Notes: generated by a model not told the origin, from the sequence alone. A stretch of DNA of 20,467 nt from a virus (IMGVR_UViG_3300046718_000379:1-20467), one strand, 5' to 3'. Counted from the stretch's first letter, positions 13,735-19,980 are shown. Translations and numbers: made by a program.

Positions 13735-13964
13735 TTGCCACCGCCTTCCGTCGCGCCGCCGCTGACGGTCTGGATGATCTTCCGCGCCTCCTGCAGATGC
13801 GTGAGCGCCGCCTGCAGCGCCTGCGTGGGCGCGTGGGCGACGGCGCGTTCCCAGCGGTAGTGGCGAATCTCCAGCCCGGCGCTGACCTCGTCGTTGATCG
13901 CGCGGATGATCGCGATCCGCTCCAGCTGCTCCTGCGTGCGTCCCGTGATCGTCTTCTTCGGCAT
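13731..13964 (-). CDS. Small helical hypothetical protein (77 aa)
   Basis: 77 residues. ATG at 13964 is supported by the CACTGGAGA leader 8 nt upstream (measured from GGAG). It looks alpha-helical (TQEQLERIAIIRAINDEVSAGLEIRHYRWERAVAHAPTQALQAAL...), with a Gly-rich tail. I see no known motif. Its stop codon overlaps the GTG start of the membrane microprotein, so both are probably co-translated. The upstream intergenic space holds a UUCG hairpin. Confidence 0.75.
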   Translation of the reverse strand: MPKKTITGRTQEQLERIAIIRAINDEVSAGLEIRHYRWERAVAHAPTQALQAALTHLQEARKIIQTVSGGATEGGGK

Positions 13965-13971
13965 GGTCGTG

Positions 13972-13980
13972 TCTCCAGTG
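13972..13980 (-). promoter_or_regulatory. CACTGGAGA translation leader, 77-aa gene
   Basis: Exact 9-mer; 8 nt between GGAG and ATG 13964, full leader CACTGGAGACACGACC. Confidence 0.7.
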
Positions 13981-13986
13981 AAGGGC

Positions 13987-14002
13987 GGGGGCCGAAGCCC
14001 CC
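13987..14002 (-). promoter_or_regulatory. Intergenic C(UUCG)G tetraloop hairpin
   Basis: 6-bp stem GGGGGC-UUCG-GCCCCC on the minus-strand RNA, between the stop of the 146-aa gene and the leader of the 77-aa gene. No U-tract follows, so it is unlikely to be an ordinary terminator; RNA stabilisation or processing is more likely. Confidence 0.6.
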
Positions 14003-14013
14003 ACCCGGATGAA

Positions 14014-14454
14014 CTACTTGCTGCGCTTCTCGCGCCGCGCACGTCGGGCTGCGGCCTTCGCCGCTCGCGCGACCCGCGCCTTCTCGCGGACCTTCGGGTC
14101 GAGCAGCGGGTTCGGGCGCGTCGGCGCGTCCTGCTGCGCCTCGGCCAGCCGCTGGCCCTGCTTGCGCTTCGCGAGGTAGGCCACGGCGTCGCGCTGCCGG
14201 GCGATGACCTCGGTGACGTGCGGCGGGAACACGATCCGCGTCGTGCGGTTCTTCGCGACGTGCTCCACGAAGAGGTAGTCGCCCTTGTCGAACCGCACGG
14301 TCTGGATGATGAACGTCTCGCTCGACACGATGTCGGTCGAGCGCACGGTCGCCGGGCGGGTCTGCGCCGCCTCCGGCAGCTTGTGCAGTTGCCCAAGCTG
14401 GTGGTCGAAGTTGTCTTGCCCTGAGTCGCCTGCCGGTCGGAGTGCTTTGGTCAT
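14014..14454 (-). CDS. Hypothetical protein with basic C-terminal tail (146 aa)
   Basis: 146 residues with ATG at 14454, 8 nt from GGAG of the CACTGGAGA leader. After about 35 polar residues there is a beta-rich core (RSTDIVSSETFIIQTVRF, DYLFVEHVAKNRTTRIVFP) ending in an ARQRDAVAYLAKRK helix. The last 25 residues are strongly basic (KAAARRARREKRSK), as in proteins that bind nucleic acid. No family recognised. It lies within the unit starting at the promoter near 15303-15332. Confidence 0.75.
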   Translation of the reverse strand: MTKALRPAGDSGQDNFDHQLGQLHKLPEAAQTRPATVRSTDIVSSETFIIQTVRFDKGDYLFVEHVAKNRTTRIVFPPHVTEVIARQRDAVAYLAKRKQGQRLAEAQQDAPTRPNPLLDPKVREKARVARAAKAAARRARREKRSK

Positions 14455-14461
14455 CGTCGTC

Positions 14462-14470
14462 TCTCCAGTG
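14462..14470 (-). promoter_or_regulatory. CACTGGAGA translation leader, 146-aa gene
   Basis: Exact 9-mer; 8 nt from GGAG to ATG 14454, following spacer GACGACG. Confidence 0.7.
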
Positions 14471-14495
14471 GGGCGCGAGCACCATGCCCGCGCCC
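14471..14495 (-). promoter_or_regulatory. Intergenic inverted repeat without UUCG loop
   Basis: 7-bp stem GGGCGCG / CGCGCCC (14471-14477 and 14489-14495), 11-nt loop, directly upstream of the CACTGGAGA at 14462-14470. It occupies the place a UUCG hairpin holds elsewhere. Confidence 0.4.
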
Positions 14496-14508
14496 AGTCG
14501 TCCGTCGT

Positions 14509-15255
14509 CTACAGTCGGTCGTCGGCGGCAAGCTCCACCACCACGCGCCCGTCGTGGCGCGCCTCGCGCGGCGTGAAGCCGGGCTGCGCGTCATACGCGG
14601 CCTCGGCGACCTTCACCCACGCGGCGACCTTGTCGGCGACCGGGGCCACGTTGACCACCGGCACGACCTTGGCGCTGCCCTTGGCCTTGTGCGGCAGGCC
14701 GTAGCGGCTCGCGCACACCGGGCCGTAGCCGACCTCGACGCTGCCCTCGTCCGTCAGGCCGAGGCCGCAGAACGAGCAGCGGCCCGTCAGCGCGCCGTAG
14801 GCGGCACCAGCCGCCGCCGGGTCGGCCTCGATGGCCTGCAGCGTCGGCAGCAGGGCGTCCACGCCGTAGGCCGCGCCCTCGCGCGTCACCTTGCCCACGT
14901 ACTCGCCGTTGAGCTTGACGTAGACGCTGCCGGGGTTGCGCGAGTCGTCGCCCGCCAGCGAGAGCAGAAGCTCGCCGTTGCCGGGGGCCGCGAAGCGCGT
15001 CTTGGGGAACTTGAGGCCGCGCTCACGCGCCGCCTTCAGGAAGGCCACCAGCCCGCTCAGGCTGACGACCGGGCGCGGGGCCGGGGCGACCGCAGACGCT
15101 GCCACCGCGACGGCGGCGAGCGCCTGCGCGGCTTGGCAGTCGCTCAGGTTGGCGTGCTTGGAGCCAGCGCCGCGTGCCCAGATGATGCTCTGGCCGGGGG
15201 TGATGGCTGACTTGCAGATGGTGCAGGTTCCGGCGAACTTCGCAGTGATGGTCAT
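14509..15255 (-). CDS. DUF6011-like zinc-finger phage protein
   Basis: 248 residues. ATG at 15255 (MTITAKFAG) is preferred to an upstream GTG in the same frame because the CACTGGAGA leader and a predicted 5' hairpin lie just before it. Two probable zinc sites are visible: N-terminal Cys11-x2-Cys14 with His34 and Cys40, and C-terminal Cys160-x2-Cys163 followed by a GYGPVC motif with Cys181. The second matches the DUF6011 pattern (C-x2-C-G-x-L-T-D-x-x-S-h-x-x-GYGPVC). Between them sit an Ala/Pro linker and a beta-rich domain (about residues 85-140). The function of the family is not established; nucleic-acid or protein binding is likely. First gene of the promoter unit at 15303-15332. Confidence 0.8.
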   Translation of the reverse strand: MTITAKFAGTCTICKSAITPGQSIIWARGAGSKHANLSDCQAAQALAAVAVAASAVAPAPRPVVSLSGLVAFLKAARERGLKFPKTRFAAPGNGELLLSLAGDDSRNPGSVYVKLNGEYVGKVTREGAAYGVDALLPTLQAIEADPAAAGAAYGALTGRCSFCGLGLTDEGSVEVGYGPVCASRYGLPHKAKGSAKVVPVVNVAPVADKVAAWVKVAEAAYDAQPGFTPREARHDGRVVVELAADDRL

Positions 15256-15260
15256 TGTCG

Positions 15261-15269
15261 TCTCCAGTG
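15261..15269 (-). promoter_or_regulatory. CACTGGAGA translation leader, DUF6011-like gene
   Basis: Exact 9-mer; shorter 6-nt gap from GGAG to ATG 15255; lies 4 nt after the transcript 2 hairpin. Confidence 0.7.
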
Positions 15270-15273
15270 TCTC

Positions 15274-15294
15274 GGGGCGACCCAGCGCCGCCCC
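15274..15294 (-). promoter_or_regulatory. 5' leader hairpin of transcript 2
   Basis: 6-bp stem GGGGCG / CGCCCC (15274-15279 and 15289-15294) with a 9-nt loop differing at one base from the loop of the 16727-16759 hairpin, so these two leaders are homologous. Confidence 0.55.
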
Positions 15295-15302
15295 ACCCAA
15301 TG

Positions 15303-15332
15303 ATTAGACACCCAGCGGTAGGTTGCTGTCAA
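15303..15332 (-). promoter_or_regulatory. Promoter-like element 2 (drives the 15255 gene)
   Basis: TTGACA (15327-15332) and TCTAAT (15303-15308), spacer 18 nt, preceded by GGGGGC. Predicted start near 15296, two to three bases before a hairpin. Confidence 0.65.
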
Positions 15333-15361
15333 GCCCCCGTCAAACCTTGGGCTTTTCGGCC

Positions 15362-15712
15362 CTACGCCCGCCTCCCGCTCAGGACGCCGACGGCCTCGGA
15401 GGCCGCGCGTTCGATGATGGCGGCGACGTAGCCCCGGCGCTCGCCGCACGCCTTCTCCGTCTCGCGGCGCAGCACGTCGGCCTTGTCGCGGGCGAGGTCG
15501 GTGATGACGGTCGCGGCCTCCTTCGCGTCGGCGACGATCTGCGCGGCCACCCGGTGGGCCGTGCTCGGCAGCATCGGCGACGGCAGGATGTCCGTCGCGA
15601 TGTCGCGGACGATGGCGTCGCGCTGGTCGGCCAGCCACGGGCCGAGGTAGGTGTGCGGGCCGAGCTTCGCGATGAACGCGTCGAGGGCGGCGACTTCTAG
15701 GTCTTTGGTCAT
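15362..15712 (-). CDS. Hypothetical helical phage protein (116 aa)
   Basis: 116 residues from ATG 15712 with the CACTGGAGA leader 8 nt upstream. It starts with an amphipathic helix and a GPHTYLGPWLADQRDAI segment (about residues 18-34), a Y-x-GPWL pattern I have seen in other phage and bacterial hypothetical proteins, followed by long Ala-rich helices with a Cys near residue 90. No catalytic signature. Its stop is about 30 nt upstream of the -35 box of the next promoter unit, so it is the last gene of the 16755 transcript unit. Confidence 0.74.
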   Translation of the reverse strand: MTKDLEVAALDAFIAKLGPHTYLGPWLADQRDAIVRDIATDILPSPMLPSTAHRVAAQIVADAKEAATVITDLARDKADVLRRETEKACGERRGYVAAIIERAASEAVGVLSGRRA

Positions 15713-15736
15713 GGTCGTGTCTCCAGTGGTCGAGGG
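15710..15736 (-). repeat. CACTGGAGA leader (15720-15728) in a 27-nt duplicated segment, 116-aa gene
   Basis: The 9-mer is 8 nt from ATG 15712. The whole 27-nt segment, from the start codon upstream, is identical to 16137-16163. Confidence 0.7.
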
Positions 15737-15737
15737 G

Positions 15738-16139
15738 TTAGAAACCGTTGCCGACGGGGAAGCCGAAGTGCGCCTTCAGCTTCGCGATCAGGTGCGACTC
15801 GGAGGTCGCGCCGAGCACCGCGCCGTCGCGGATGAGGACGCAGACGTTCGTCTCCAGTTGGCGCTCGCCCATGTAGGTCGAGGTGACGTAGAGGTCAAGC
15901 TCGGCGCAGCCCGGCGCGGCGGCGTGCGCGTCGATGGCCTTGATGGCGCGCAGCGCGACGAAGTCGCCGAGGTCGCTGTCGTCGGTCCAGTTCAGCGCGT
16001 TCGGCAGGTTCGCGCCGTCGCCGTTCGGCGAGCAGTCGCGCAGGCCGACCTCCGCGCAGGGCGCGAAGCCGCTGGTGTTCGCGCGGACGGCGGCGTTGAT
16101 CGCCTTCCGCAGGGCCGGGGTGACGGGGATGCTGTTCAT
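15738..16139 (-). CDS. Hypothetical phage protein (133 aa)
   Basis: 133 residues from ATG 16139, with CACTGGAGA 8 nt away. Mixed alpha/beta: an N-terminal helix (TPALRKAINAAVRAN), an acidic central part (NWTDDSDLGDFVALRAIKAIDA) and a beta-rich C-terminal part (ELDLYVTSTYMGERQLETNVCVLIRDG). No family recognised. The 27 bases from its start codon upstream are identical to those at the next gene downstream, so this leader is one of a duplicated pair. Confidence 0.75.
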   Translation of the reverse strand: MNSIPVTPALRKAINAAVRANTSGFAPCAEVGLRDCSPNGDGANLPNALNWTDDSDLGDFVALRAIKAIDAHAAAPGCAELDLYVTSTYMGERQLETNVCVLIRDGAVLGATSESHLIAKLKAHFGFPVGNGF

Positions 16140-16163
16140 GGTCGTGTCTCCAGTGGTCGAGGG
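16137..16163 (-). repeat. CACTGGAGA leader (16147-16155) in a 27-nt duplicated segment, 133-aa gene
   Basis: Second copy of the duplicated leader; 9-mer 8 nt from ATG 16139. The two flanking genes are otherwise unrelated. Confidence 0.7.
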
Positions 16164-16283
16164 TCAGAAGCTCTGCAGCCACGCGATCAGCGCGTCGGCG
16201 TGTGGCCTCGCCTGCTCGGGCTTGCCGCAGGCGAGGAAGGCGAACACCTTCGCGAGGTGGGTCGAGGCGGTCTGGCGGTCCAT
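16164..16283 (-). CDS. 39-residue helical microprotein
   Basis: Short frame starting with ATG 16283, 8 nt from GGAG of a perfect CACTGGAGA leader, and ending with TGA at 16164-16166. The product (MDRQTASTHLAKVFAFLACG and on to IAWLQSF) reads as one or two helices with aromatic and Leu faces and one Cys. It was found by following the leader motif rather than by length. It may be a host-takeover peptide of the kind common in phage early regions, but there is no direct evidence. The UUCG hairpin lies just upstream. Confidence 0.68.
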   Translation of the reverse strand: MDRQTASTHLAKVFAFLACGKPEQARPHADALIAWLQSF

Positions 16284-16290
16284 GTCAGTG

Positions 16291-16328
16291 TCTCCAGTGA
16301 GGCCGGGGGCCGAAGCCCCCGGCGGGTG
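16291..16328 (-). repeat. CACTGGAGA leader (16291-16299) plus UUCG hairpin cassette, 39-aa gene
   Basis: 9-mer 8 nt from ATG 16283. The leader plus hairpin (16291-16328) matches 18570-18608 except for one inserted base. Confidence 0.7.
16302..16323 (-). promoter_or_regulatory. Intergenic C(UUCG)G tetraloop hairpin
   Basis: 9-bp perfect stem (arms 16302-16310 and 16315-16323) closing a UUCG loop on the minus-strand RNA, between the 126-aa gene and the 39-aa gene. Nearly identical in sequence to the copy at 18582-18603. Confidence 0.62.
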
Positions 16329-16329
16329 G

Positions 16330-16710
16330 TCAGTCGTTGCGTCCGTTGGCGTCGCCGCGCCACGCCCCGGCGAGCTTCAGCGGCTCGGCGGCGAGGCCGA
16401 AGTGGTCAACCGGGTAGACGCCGACGCAGCGTGCGGCCTGCCAGACATAGCCCTCGGCGTTCTTGCGAGCGCCCGCCTCGGTGCGCGACCAGACGATGTG
16501 GTAGCGGACGCGCTGCGTGCCGGGGTGCGTCTTGCCTTGGTACTCGTAGGTTTCCGAGAGGGCCGGGTCGCCGATGCGGTTGCCCGTGACGCGTAGCCCG
16601 GCTTCCGGGTTCACGGCGGCTTCGGCGACGGCGGCGAAGCCGTAGGCGGTGCCTGACTTGCGGGTGAAGTTGCCGAAGGGGGTGTTGATGACGTTCGTGA
16701 GCTTTGCCAT
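16330..16710 (-). CDS. Hypothetical phage protein (126 aa)
   Basis: 126 residues. ATG 16710 (MAKLTNVINTPFG) is chosen because the leader and a predicted 5' hairpin lie upstream; the open frame extends further but through the hairpin itself. The sequence alternates beta-like and helical segments (GTQRVRYHIVWSRTEAGARKNAEGYVWQAARC), with one Cys, and ends in Arg/Asp residues. No recognised motif. It is the first gene downstream of the promoter at 16762-16791 and is followed by a UUCG hairpin. Confidence 0.75.
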   Translation of the reverse strand: MAKLTNVINTPFGNFTRKSGTAYGFAAVAEAAVNPEAGLRVTGNRIGDPALSETYEYQGKTHPGTQRVRYHIVWSRTEAGARKNAEGYVWQAARCVGVYPVDHFGLAAEPLKLAGAWRGDANGRND

Positions 16711-16717
16711 TGGTCGT

Positions 16718-16726
16718 TCTCCAGTG
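16718..16726 (-). promoter_or_regulatory. CACTGGAGA translation leader, 126-aa gene
   Basis: Exact 9-mer directly abutting the transcript 3 hairpin; 8 nt from GGAG to ATG 16710. Confidence 0.7.
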
Positions 16727-16759
16727 TCTGGTGGGGCGACCCAACGCCGCCCCACCAGA
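16727..16759 (-). promoter_or_regulatory. 5' leader hairpin of transcript 3
   Basis: Perfect 12-bp stem: TCTGGTGGGGCG / CGCCCCACCAGA (arms 16727-16738 and 16748-16759), 9-nt loop. It directly abuts the CACTGGAGA at 16718-16726. If transcription starts near 16755 the first few stem bases are not transcribed. Confidence 0.58.
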
Positions 16760-16761
16760 AG

Positions 16762-16791
16762 AGTATGCGCCCAAACCTAGCGGACTGTCAA
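16762..16791 (-). promoter_or_regulatory. Promoter-like element 3 (drives the 16710 gene)
   Basis: TTGACA (16786-16791) and CATACT (16762-16767), spacer 18 nt containing CTAGGTTT, preceded by GGGGG. The -35 box begins 5 nt after the stop of the upstream gene. Predicted start near 16755. Confidence 0.65.
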
Positions 16792-16796
16792 CCCCC

Positions 16797-17732
16797 TCAT
16801 ATTCCCTCGAAAACTGCCATCAGCTTGTCTCGCAGCGCCTGACGACTGCCGCGCAGGGCGGCGTTCTGGGCGCTCAGGCCGACCAGTTGCTCGCGGGCCA
16901 GCCCGAGAACCGCCACGGCGTCGTCCAGCATCCGCAGCAGTTCGGTGAGCGAGGTGTCCACTGCCGCCTCGGTCGTCGCCCCAGCGGCCACCAGCGCGGC
17001 CACAGAGGGCTTCTGGGGCAGGTCGGCGGCGACCGCCTCCAGCGCCGCCTGCGCCCCCGGCGTGACCGTCAGGGTCGGCACGTTGGCCGGGTCGAGGCGC
17101 ATCGACAGCAGGTCGGGCACGTCAGGCGGCACCGGGGTGTGCTTGAGGCGCTCCTCCTCCAGCGCCCGCTCGATGCCCCGGCGCACGACGCTGACGGTGG
17201 ACTGCACCGACACCAGCGTCGTCGTAAACCCGTGCGTGTAGGCCGACCGCAGCAGGCGCTCGGCCTCGGCCTTCTGGTGGCCGTGGTCGCTGCCGTAGAC
17301 GTAGTTGCGCTCGATGAAGCTGAACAGCGACCCGGTCCACTTCTCGCTCGGGGCGTCGGGGTGCTTCGGCGTCTCCAGTGTCTTCGGTTGCAGCGGCTGC
17401 AGCAGGCGGCGCACCTCGCCGGTCCCGAGCAGCGCCGGGTGGACGAAGGTCTGCGTCCCCTTCGCGAGGTCGCAGACGCGGCGGTGCTGTCGGTGGCCGA
17501 TCCACTTGAAGAACAGCACGACGCCGATGTCGCCGCGCAGGTTCGCGGCCTTGTCGATCTCCGGCCCCTCTGAGGGCCAGAGGCAGATGCGCGGGTCGTC
17601 GGCGACCCACTGCGGCAGGTTGCCAGCCTTTGTCCCAACGATCAGGATCCGCCGTTGGTTTGCGACCGCGTCGAGGATGGCATTGGCGACGGGTTCACCG
17701 GGTGGTAGCAGGTCACGAAGTGGCGTTGACAT
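16797..17732 (-). CDS. Hypothetical protein, possible Rossmann-like N-terminal domain (311 aa)
   Basis: ATG 17732 (MSTPLRDLL) is preferred over ATG 17738 because AAGGAG lies 7 nt upstream of 17732 but only 1 nt from 17738; the longer frame overlaps the HNH gene. The N-terminal part (ILIVGTKAGNLPQWV, then GDIGVVLFFKWIGHRQHRRVCDLAKG, about residues 22-90) has the strand-loop-strand look of a Rossmann-like domain such as DUF2325; this similarity is weak and from memory. From about residue 120, after a Pro/Lys linker, comes a helical region with GFTTTLVSVQSTVSVVRRG, which could be a DNA-binding helix pair, then an Ala/Leu-rich coiled-coil tail. The linker codons contain a 14-base copy of the leader motif (see findings). 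The gene ends just before the -35 box of the next promoter. Function unknown. Confidence 0.7.
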   Translation of the reverse strand: MSTPLRDLLPPGEPVANAILDAVANQRRILIVGTKAGNLPQWVADDPRICLWPSEGPEIDKAANLRGDIGVVLFFKWIGHRQHRRVCDLAKGTQTFVHPALLGTGEVRRLLQPLQPKTLETPKHPDAPSEKWTGSLFSFIERNYVYGSDHGHQKAEAERLLRSAYTHGFTTTLVSVQSTVSVVRRGIERALEEERLKHTPVPPDVPDLLSMRLDPANVPTLTVTPGAQAALEAVAADLPQKPSVAALVAAGATTEAAVDTSLTELLRMLDDAVAVLGLAREQLVGLSAQNAALRGSRQALRDKLMAVFEGI

Positions 17733-17734
17733 GG

Positions 17735-18073
17735 TCATGCTCCTTTTCGAGCGTATCGAGCGCGTTTCCGAGCCGCCCGGCAGACGAGGCAGGCTTGATG
17801 CCCGCTGCCGAGTAGAACGTAGGCGTGCCCCTTCGGGCAGTGTGTGTGTCGAGGCTTGTGGTGCCGCCCGTGGGCAGCGCCAGACATCAGGGCGAGGTGG
17901 TTCGGGTTGATGCACGCGCGGACGCCACAGCGGTGGTGGACGCACTGCCCCGGCGGGATCGGCCCGACGAACACCTCGTAGGCGAGGCGATGCACCCGCC
18001 AGAGACGACCGGCGTGCTTCACCACGCCGTAGCCGTCAGGGCGGCGAGTGCCGGTCCAGAGCCAGCACTTCAC
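17735..18073 (-). CDS. HNH endonuclease
   Basis: 112 residues, GTG start at 18073 overlapping the upstream TGA (GTGA). The HNH signature is clear: a WLWTG.......YG....G....HRLAYE lead-in (residues 4-33), then HHRC (46-49), Cys54, Asn56 and His59 in a C-x4-C-x-N-P-x-HL arrangement typical of HNH_3-type phage nucleases. A second metal-binding knuckle follows (Cys79, His83, Cys95, Cys98) and the C-terminus is basic. These residues would bind one catalytic divalent metal and structural zinc, to cut DNA. The stop is ATGA-adjacent to the next gene. It may be a free-standing homing endonuclease or a nuclease serving the phage cycle; being inside an overlapping operon slightly favours the latter. Confidence 0.9.
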   Translation of the reverse strand: MKCWLWTGTRRPDGYGVVKHAGRLWRVHRLAYEVFVGPIPPGQCVHHRCGVRACINPNHLALMSGAAHGRHHKPRHTHCPKGHAYVLLGSGHQACLVCRAARKRARYARKGA

Positions 18074-18564
18074 AGTGCATCCTCCTGCGCGACCGCCGCG
18101 AGGGCGGGGAGCGCGGCCCGCACGCGCTGCTGGACCGCTGCGATGCGGGCAGCGGCCTCGGCAGGCGACGGCAGGGGCTTGCCCGAGACGAGGCTGACAG
18201 CGGCGCTGGGAGGCCGCTGGGGCGTCGGGGGCACCGGGCGGGGCACACGCGCGCCGCCGGGCAGGTTCGTGCTCTGGCGGGCCGCAGGAGCCGCCGGAGG
18301 GGCCGTCTCAGCGACGACCGGCTGCGCGAGCGCCTGCGCCAGTTGGTGCCGCACGGCGTGCCACCGGGCGCGCACGGCGTCGGCGACATCCGGGGCGGTC
18401 ACGGCGACCAGCGAGAAGTGGAGGGCCGACGCCTGCTGCTCGCGGTCGAGCAGGCCGACGGGGACGCCCTCGGTGACGAGGTAGCAGAACGCGCGGAGGC
18501 CGAACGCCTCGGCGGTTTCGCCGGGCTGCTGCCGGGCGAGGACGGGGATGCGGGGGAAGCTCAT
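18070..18564 (-). CDS. Hypothetical protein with Pro-rich linker (164 aa)
   Basis: 164 residues from ATG 18564, GGAG 6 nt upstream in the CACTGGAGA leader. The N-terminal domain (about 1-80) is helical with some aromatic residues (FGLRAFCYLVTEGVPVGLLDREQQASALHFSLVAV). A Pro/Ala/Gly-rich, probably disordered linker (about 83-130) leads to a C-terminal Ala/Arg helix (PAEAAARIAAVQQRVRAALPALAAV). No family recognised. Its stop overlaps the HNH start, so the two are probably co-translated. Confidence 0.75.
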   Translation of the reverse strand: MSFPRIPVLARQQPGETAEAFGLRAFCYLVTEGVPVGLLDREQQASALHFSLVAVTAPDVADAVRARWHAVRHQLAQALAQPVVAETAPPAAPAARQSTNLPGGARVPRPVPPTPQRPPSAAVSLVSGKPLPSPAEAAARIAAVQQRVRAALPALAAVAQEDAL

Positions 18565-18569
18565 GGTCG

Positions 18570-18608
18570 TCTCCAGTGAAGGCCGGGGGCCGAAGCCCCC
18601 GGCGGGTG
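18570..18608 (-). repeat. CACTGGAGA leader (18570-18578) plus UUCG hairpin cassette, 164-aa gene
   Basis: 9-mer 6 nt from ATG 18564. Near-identical copy of the 16291-16328 cassette, in front of an unrelated gene. Confidence 0.7.
18582..18603 (-). promoter_or_regulatory. Intergenic C(UUCG)G tetraloop hairpin
   Basis: 9-bp perfect stem (18582-18590 and 18595-18603) with a UUCG loop, between the DUF932 gene and the 164-aa gene, 3 nt before the CACTGGAGA motif. Confidence 0.62.
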
Positions 18609-18613
18609 AGGTG

Positions 18614-19624
18614 TTACGCCGCCACCAACTGGCGGGCCTGCGTGAGGGCGAGCACCTTGACCTCGGCGTTCGCGCCGAAGAGGGCCGACTCGTTCGCCCG
18701 CTGGCGACCGCTGACCGAGGATGCCTCGGCAGGACGGACGTGGTCGAAGTACTCCGTGACGGCGTTGTAGACCGACCACGCGTTCGGGTCGCCGCCGGTC
18801 AGGACGGTCGCCTGCTCGACGCCGACGCCTTCGAAGACCAGCCGCGACACCGTCGCCCGGCGCTTCGCCAGCGTGTCGTTGACGACCAGCTTGCCGCCGA
18901 CGACCTCGCCGGGGAACACCGACTCGATGTAGGCGATGACCTCGCTCGGGTTCAGCTTGCGCTGGGCCAACTGCTTGAAGCTCTCGCCCGTGGCGATCAG
19001 CGACTTGGTCAGGCCGGTGAAGAGCGCCCGCGCCTGCTCGACGCGCGACGCCGCCGACGTGGTGTGGCGGATGCTCACGACGTTCGCGTGGGCCTCGCTG
19101 CGGGCCAGCGCGATGGTGTTCTGGCAGACCGCGCGGGTGCCGGTCGCGATGATCTTCACCGCGCCGCTGCCGTCGTGCGACCACGTCAGGAGCGCGTAGC
19201 CCTGCACGCTGTCGCCGTTGCCGGTGACATCGACCGTCGCCCCGGCCAGCCGCACCAGCGCCCAGAGCCGCTCGCCGCGCCCGAGGGAGCCGATGACCTC
19301 GATGGTCGCGCCCAGTTCCTCGACCGCCGTCTCCAGAATCGAGACGGCCTGCCGGTTCTGCACCGCCGCGTAAGACGGGCCGACCACCGCCAACTGCGCG
19401 AGGTCGGTCGAGCGCCGGGCCAACTGGCCGAGCGGGATGAGCGAGCCGGTGCCGTCGTAGAGCGGCTCAAGGATGACGGTCCAGTCGAGGCCAGCCGCCG
19501 CGAGCGACTGGTCGATGGAGTAGCGCACGTCGCCGCGTAGGCGGGTGCCGAGGCCGTGCCACGGGGTCGAGCCGATGTAGGCGATGGACGACTGGCCGTT
19601 GATGGTTGCGATGTTGTGAGCCAT
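18614..19624 (-). CDS. DUF932 / phage-plasmid-like protein (TIGR03299 type)
   Basis: 336 residues; ATG 19624 with CACTGGAGA 9 nt from the start. The N-terminal motif (AYIGSTPWHGLGTRL, residues 15-29, PWHGLGT core) and the body (ALVRLAGATVDVTGNGDSVQGYALLTWSHDGSGAVKI, later TRAVCQNTIALARSEAHA) match the widely distributed DUF932 family of phages and plasmids, and the length is typical. The family's biochemical role is not established; it is generally an early-region or accessory gene. The most confidently identified gene of the minus-strand block along with the HNH nuclease. Confidence 0.9.
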   Translation of the reverse strand: MAHNIATINGQSSIAYIGSTPWHGLGTRLRGDVRYSIDQSLAAAGLDWTVILEPLYDGTGSLIPLGQLARRSTDLAQLAVVGPSYAAVQNRQAVSILETAVEELGATIEVIGSLGRGERLWALVRLAGATVDVTGNGDSVQGYALLTWSHDGSGAVKIIATGTRAVCQNTIALARSEAHANVVSIRHTTSAASRVEQARALFTGLTKSLIATGESFKQLAQRKLNPSEVIAYIESVFPGEVVGGKLVVNDTLAKRRATVSRLVFEGVGVEQATVLTGGDPNAWSVYNAVTEYFDHVRPAEASSVSGRQRANESALFGANAEVKVLALTQARQLVAA

Positions 19625-19632
19625 TGGTCTGA

Positions 19633-19641
19633 TCTCCAGTG
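19633..19641 (-). promoter_or_regulatory. CACTGGAGA translation leader, DUF932 gene
   Basis: Exact 9-mer; longest gap of the set, 9 nt from GGAG to ATG 19624; no hairpin beside it. Confidence 0.7.
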
Positions 19642-19657
19642 AACGAGGGTTGACGAG

Positions 19658-19903
19658 TTAGCGGACGCGGACGGCGAACTTCTTGCCGCCGCCGAAGGTC
19701 GGGACGACGTAGGTCGTGGCGCTCAGGCCCGCGCGGTGCGCGAGCGTGACGGCGGCGCTCACCGCGTGGTCATCGAAGCTGGTCAGCGTGACGCTCTTCG
19801 GGTTGATCTGGATGCGGAGGGCGTGCAGCAGGGCGTCGTTCGCCTCGACGGCGTTGATGAACTTCTGCTGGGCGGCTTCGGCGGCAGCGGTGAGCTTCGT
19901 CAT
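19658..19903 (-). CDS. Hypothetical protein, first gene of the minus-strand unit (81 aa)
   Basis: 81 residues; ATG 19903 (MTKLTAAAEAAQQKFINAVEA) with CACTGGAGA 8 nt upstream. An N-terminal Ala-rich helix is followed by a beta/alpha part (NPKSVTLTSFDDHAVSAAVTLAHRAGLSATTYVVPTFGGGKKFAVRVR) that looks compact. An open frame extends upstream, but it runs through the promoter and hairpin, so the shorter start is chosen. No family recognised. It would be the first protein made from the divergent control region. Confidence 0.76.
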   Translation of the reverse strand: MTKLTAAAEAAQQKFINAVEANDALLHALRIQINPKSVTLTSFDDHAVSAAVTLAHRAGLSATTYVVPTFGGGKKFAVRVR

Positions 19904-19910
19904 CGGTGTC

Positions 19911-19919
19911 TCTCCAGTG
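19911..19919 (-). promoter_or_regulatory. CACTGGAGA translation leader, 81-aa gene
   Basis: Exact 9-mer; 8 nt from GGAG to ATG 19903, 1 nt after the base of the transcript 1 hairpin region. Confidence 0.7.
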
Positions 19920-19920
19920 C

Positions 19921-19943
19921 GTCGCCGCGACAATCGCGACGAC
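19921..19943 (-). promoter_or_regulatory. 5' leader hairpin of transcript 1
   Basis: 10-bp stem with one G-U pair: arms 19921-19930 and 19934-19943, 3-nt loop. On the minus-strand RNA it starts at the predicted first base and ends 2 nt before CACTGGAGA. Confidence 0.55.
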
Positions 19944-19949
19944 CTGCCA

Positions 19950-19980
19950 AGTATACGTCGAAACCTAGCCACCGCGTCAA
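19950..19980 (-). promoter_or_regulatory. Promoter-like element 1 (drives the 19903 gene and beyond)
   Basis: On the minus strand, TTGACG (19975-19980) and TATACT (19950-19955), 19 nt apart, preceded by a GGGGGG tract and with CTAGGTTT in the spacer. Predicted start near 19943, at the first base of a hairpin. Confidence 0.6.

Follow-up and report, generated by a model that had tools for sequence, protein, structure and literature searches.

Why does one nine-base sequence recur just ahead of start codons along one arm of a phage genome, and what would it do there? The window, which is the whole 20,467-base stretch of DNA that was analysed, represents part of a phage genome of roughly 40–45 kb. 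This phage carries an SU10-type portal, a gpT-like capsid protein and a terminase, and its minus-strand arm encodes DUF932, an HNH endonuclease and a DUF6011 protein. The HNH reading frame (17735-18070, minus strand) lies between the 164-aa and 311-aa genes and is possibly a homing insertion.

Copies of the tag and the phages that carry it

The tag, CACTGGAGA, occurs 11 times in the window, always on the minus strand and never on the plus, where dinucleotide-preserving shuffles give an expectation of 0.17. Ten of the 11 copies stand ahead of ATG start codons. An earlier note had reported ten exact copies 6–9 nt before starts, and our recount gave identical figures, with GGAG 8 nt from the ATG in seven cases, 6 nt in two and 9 nt in one. 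The copies are as follows.

19911..19919, minus: CACTGGAGA ahead of the 81-aa gene (19903-19658), first gene of the minus arm
19633..19641, minus: CACTGGAGA ahead of the DUF932 gene (19624-18614)
18570..18578, minus: CACTGGAGA ahead of the 164-aa gene (18564-18070)
17372..17380, minus: intragenic CACTGGAGA within the 311-aa gene, without a start codon behind it
16718..16726, minus: CACTGGAGA ahead of the 126-aa gene (16710-16330)
16291..16299, minus: CACTGGAGA ahead of the 39-aa gene (16283-16164)
16147..16155, minus: CACTGGAGA ahead of the 133-aa gene (16139-15738)
15720..15728, minus: CACTGGAGA ahead of the 116-aa gene (15712-15362)
15261..15269, minus: CACTGGAGA ahead of the 248-aa DUF6011 gene (15255-14509)
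14462..14470, minus: CACTGGAGA ahead of the 146-aa basic-tailed gene (14454-14014)
13972..13980, minus: CACTGGAGA ahead of the 77-aa gene (13964-13731)

The intragenic copy recurs in two relatives, where the coding sequence around it is conserved (QPKTLET or QPTTLET), and coding constraint suffices to account for it. Overall, the tag-to-start spacing tolerates 6–11 nt, a range no wider than ordinary ribosome binding would allow. A DNA-level site (a repressor, stoperator or antitermination site) that lies at starts by chance is a highly improbable explanation. Some copies do sit downstream of promoters, but most have none, the distance is fixed to the start codon rather than to promoters, and every copy linked to a start lies in sense orientation.

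Relatives were collected by DUF932 and capsid searches. They comprise a motif-bearing set of five long phages (G002, G004, G008, G009 and G016), a sister set of four syntenic phages (G011, G012, G013 and G060) whose capsids are 86–88% identical and whose terminases are 68–77% identical where compared, and a distant set of five phages with capsids at about 55–60%. One relative, G002, is a near-identical contig of 38,465 bp that aligns with the window from about base 216 onward and continues past it. G002 has plus-strand copies of CACTGGAGA at 21048 before an Erf recombinase gene, at 22754 before an exonuclease gene and at 28433 before a 109-aa gene that adjoins the terminase. The earlier observation that no copy precedes the plus-strand virion genes thus stands for the window, but restriction to the minus strand is a window effect, and the rule is gene class rather than strand.

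More remote searches gave little. A comparison with 50,697 phage records gave neither a DNA match for the minus arm nor any close protein relative, and full-length protein matches to named phages reach just about 24–32% identity. A search of 84,980 genomes of bacteria and archaea for the host, through capsid homology, found no relative, and Rfam and tRNA scans returned zero matches. Two kinds of tag match were set aside: G015, a contig of lower GC whose two copies lie close together, seems to be a local duplication rather than a relative, and singleton matches in other viral contigs look like background. Within the minus arm, the 146-aa protein (14014-14454, minus strand) has a strongly basic C-terminal helix and is 90–93% identical in two otherwise diverged motif phages; its structure model (pLDDT 64) was too poor for a fold search.

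Genes marked by the tag and by its sister

Across the five motif phages, with genes called by our own script, an exact copy of the 9-mer stands ahead of 48 out of 150 non-virion genes but of only 3 out of 137 in the virion block (P=2e-12; shared ancestry among the genomes means that this and later P-values overstate independence). The three virion-block exceptions are one family, the 109-aa gene next to terminase. The tag had been proposed to mark early or accessory genes, and the non-virion bias bears this out, with early timing the inferred part. Unsupervised motif finding upstream of starts recovered CACTGGAG(A) only in non-virion genes of the motif phages; virion genes and distant phages yielded weak Shine-Dalgarno signals only. 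Virion leaders that contain GGAG mostly read AGGAGC, commonly overlapping the TAG stop codon of the preceding gene.

Among non-virion genes, the tag follows the spacing of starts. Tagged genes have a median upstream gap of 49 nt, against -1 for the others, and starts that overlap or lie within 5 nt of the upstream gene make up 7 of 44 tagged and 53 of 89 other non-virion cases (P=2e-6). Those seven tagged starts, within or at the end of the upstream gene, run against the gap rule, and several untagged non-virion genes with gaps have CACTGGAGC instead. The 39-aa gene is tagged behind a gap in G002 and G008, and is untagged in G004, G009 and G016, where it overlaps or closely follows the upstream gene. 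Our preferred reading, at a probability of about 0.6, is that CACTGGAGA is a lineage-specific start-associated sequence, or extended ribosome-binding site, for independently started, non-virion and probably early genes. Tagged genes would have to start translation alone, with no upstream gene overlapping, and selection would keep the tag there.

At the DUF932, 248-aa, 116-aa, 39-aa, 126-aa and exonuclease genes, the corresponding slot in the sister phages is filled by CCGAGGAG or CGAGGGAG, often with a promoter hairpin of the same type before it. In the four sister phages this tag, a pattern defined after inspection and looser than CACTGGAGA, precedes 29 of 132 non-virion and 2 of 122 virion genes (P=2e-7). 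Counted across clades, sister-type tags precede 0 of 287 genes in the motif clade, and the CACTGGAG-type tag 1 of 254 in the sister clade. A first form of the sister pattern, CCGAGGRAG, was dropped when real variants did not fit it. Sister capsid leaders read GGAGA(C/T)ACGACC, and the capsid leader of L092 (gene 17485-18402, plus strand) is CCCACTAGGAGCCAGCC, which is tag-like with one additional A.

The clade difference bears on a stronger form of the preferred reading, in which the nine bases serve as an operator for a small RNA or an RNA-binding protein, of phage or host, that raises or lowers early-gene translation. The specificity of such a factor would have changed between the clades, so that all the tags changed together. 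The concerted change at orthologous genes is as this idea would have it, as are the identical tag in otherwise unlike leaders and the conservation past the 4 bp that pair with rRNA. One candidate reader is the 146-aa basic-tailed gene product, whose gene was found in every motif phage of sufficient completeness and in no sister phage that was compared, but this co-occurrence is based on a handful of related genomes and the structure model of the protein is poor. We hold a dedicated reader to be possible and, on present evidence, rather unlikely.

Hairpins and promoters ahead of the tag

Many tagged starts are preceded by a predicted RNA stem. A strong stem ends near the ribosome-binding site at 26 of 61 distinct tagged starts; among the untagged starts of these phages the figure is 16 of 240 (P=1e-10). 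At the threshold used, the other 35 of 61 are without a strong adjacent hairpin. The hairpins are of two types. The first are GC hairpins with TTCG or TGCG loops in gene gaps. The second often have a GTTGG or GCTGG loop and begin 4–9 nt past the -10 box of a TTGACA/TATACT-like promoter, so the transcript should begin with the stem. The hairpins and promoters of the window are listed below.

19950..19980, minus: promoter-like TTGACG-19-TATACT, upstream of the 81-aa gene
19921..19943, minus: hairpin GTCGTCGCGA[TTG]TCGCGGCGAC, shortly past the -10 box and before the 81-aa gene tag
18582..18603, minus: intergenic hairpin GCCGGGGGC[TTCG]GCCCCCGGC, directly upstream of the 164-aa gene tag
16762..16791, minus: promoter-like TTGACA-18-CATACT, read from sequence, upstream of the 126-aa gene
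16727..16759, minus: 5'-terminal-type hairpin TCTGGTGGGGCGGC[GTTGG]GTCGCCCCACCAGA, abutting the 126-aa gene tag
16302..16323, minus: intergenic hairpin GCCGGGGGC[TTCG]GCCCCCGGC, before the 39-aa gene tag
15303..15332, minus: promoter-like TTGACA-18-TCTAAT, read from sequence, upstream of the DUF6011 gene
15273..15295, minus: hairpin TGGGGCGGC[GCTGG]GTCGCCCCG, before the 248-aa DUF6011 gene tag
14471..14495, minus: intergenic hairpin GGGCGCGGGCA[TGG]TGCTCGCGCCC, abutting the 146-aa gene tag
13983..14006, minus: intergenic hairpin GGGTGGGGGC[TTCG]GCCCCCGCCC, before the 77-aa gene tag

The stems are supported by compensatory change. A set of 15 hairpins, mostly of the promoter type and drawn from both clades, has standard pairing in 98% of the inner seven pairs and 42 cells changed on both sides, whereas re-dealing the 3' arms in 5,000 trials left 55% paired on average and 82% at maximum. 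The shuffle leaves relatedness in and the hairpins were chosen for pairing, so the changes on both sides outweigh the percentage. Ahead of hairpins in both clades lies (T/C)ATACTCTTCTGGT (the sister phages L107 at 12630 and 15470, L118 at 8659 and L119 near 22400, and the window at 16767), apparently a conserved promoter and transcript-start region. The TTCG hairpins were rejected as intrinsic terminators for want of a T run behind the stem, and partial termination at them is possible. Burkholderia phages have much the same TTCG hairpin in places outside their annotated genes.

Under the preferred reading, a tagged leader would be modular, with often a stable hairpin, then the tag with its GGAG core, a 5–8 nt spacer often ending in ACGACC, and the ATG. 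The hairpin would sit at the transcript start where there is a promoter and in the gene gap elsewhere; it would insulate or protect the RNA and leave the tag single-stranded. GGAG would recruit the 30S subunit, while the CACT and A around it would add something that anti-Shine-Dalgarno pairing does not explain. We infer the role in translation and the transcript starts of tagged genes. A more speculative extension, which we rate below a dedicated reader, treats the tag as a password: a co-evolving phage factor would admit or repress only those mRNAs that bear the lineage's start tag behind a hairpin, and the tag would have been replaced in concert when the clades split.

Ribosome pairing, copying and precedents

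Against the standard 16S tail, which is assumed and may not be the host's, CACUGGAGA forms the four GGAG pairs only, at -6.4 kcal/mol, just as the earlier note had argued. The corresponding values are about -8.5 to -9.3 for the sister tags and -12.5 for a full Shine-Dalgarno. The standard tail is plausible because AGGAG, found in the virion leaders of these phages, agrees with it. With CUCCAGUG at the host 16S end, the tag would be no more than an ordinary Shine-Dalgarno; CCUCCU there would fit an extended tag. The ribosome-binding region is predicted to be somewhat more open at tagged starts (0.52 unpaired) than at other starts (0.43). As for a tag equally common in unrelated host genes, which the same note had named as grounds for refutation, a search of 257 Gb of sequenced bacteria and archaea with the 18-base leader pattern turned up 12 scattered single hits, near chance.

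Conservation of CACT and the final A past the needs of a Shine-Dalgarno had also been claimed, and for the final base orthologous leaders agree. In 37 leader pairs (mean protein identity 73%), where the first eight motif bases match by construction, the ninth base, not used in choosing pairs, matches in 86%, and the ungapped flanks in about 45%. A competing account is an ordinary strong Shine-Dalgarno leader spread by cassette exchange, with uninformative additional bases and copies that are young or homogenised. The phage encodes Erf and an exonuclease, homology blocks between G002 (13757-19426) and G009/G004 end 1–15 nt from several tag copies, and groups of copies share longer flanks, all of which suggests that cassettes may be exchanged along with their leaders. 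Block ends fall at gene starts anyway, so their nearness to tags is weak evidence, and we make no claim that the tag guides recombination. Most copies share nothing past the nine bases, which persist while flanks diverge. The earlier proposal of a recently spread cassette therefore survives in part, as leaders partly behave as exchangeable modules, but mere spread is a doubtful explanation of the tag.

In T4, early-gene initiation regions are targeted as a class by the phage factors RegB and RegA (PMC3014915). An early mRNA endonuclease that cuts at GGAG, as RegB does to inactivate early transcripts, would find GGAG followed by A-containing spacers in the non-virion leaders here; the RegB consensus is GG*AGRAYARAA (PMC3014915). 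However, RegB does not need CACT, virion leaders carry GGAG too, the spacer mismatches the strong-site consensus, and the proteins scanned, which did not include every small gene, held no RegB-like match; we think such a target very unlikely. RegB needs GGAG with an A-rich 3' context and RegA sites are A+U rich (PMC3014915), and neither uses CACTGGAGA.

The closest precedent is the Start-Associated Sequence (SAS) of Cluster K mycobacteriophages, a short asymmetric repeat present in 11–19 copies at the ribosome-binding-site position. It stands before non-structural genes, mostly with ATG starts, prefers intergenic gaps and is conserved past rRNA pairing. About half of the SASs lie behind an inverted-repeat/promoter element (extended SAS, ESAS), a 17-bp imperfect inverted repeat with a SigA-like promoter, and its authors found little support for an RNA hairpin (PMC3203893; PMC11373665). 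Cluster EF Microbacterium phages have a 13-bp SAS in ten copies at ribosome-binding-site positions with a linked upstream element (PMC7302621). Like the Cluster K SAS, CACTGGAGA is a short non-palindromic repeat at ribosome-binding distance from starts, limited to non-structural genes (in the proportions given above), associated with larger gaps and conserved past rRNA pairing. The consensus differs, however (GGGATAGGAGCCC in Cluster K and GGGAAAGGACCCC in Cluster EF), and the phages here are unrelated to those genomes. Here the stem shows compensatory change, and sister clades have different tags at orthologous genes. Hairpin and promoter occur at a subset of tags and differ from the ESAS in sequence, length and order; the EF upstream element is a weak sequence motif and not a hairpin. 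By analogy, the tag is probably best read as an SAS of the Cluster K/EF kind, with different letters and a better-supported RNA hairpin.

This precedent adds to what the earlier note had seen, as do the layout of hairpins and promoters, the copies on the plus strand and the other tag of the sister clade. SASs have been known since 2011 without a function, and the present case is an independent one in unrelated phages. It offers three new handles. The tag tracks uncoupled starts and not particular genes; it is linked to a hairpin whose stem shows compensatory changes and with which several transcripts would open; and the sister phages, though almost the same in their capsid, have another tag at orthologous genes. 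With these handles, swap experiments could separate the effects of ribosome, hairpin and factor.
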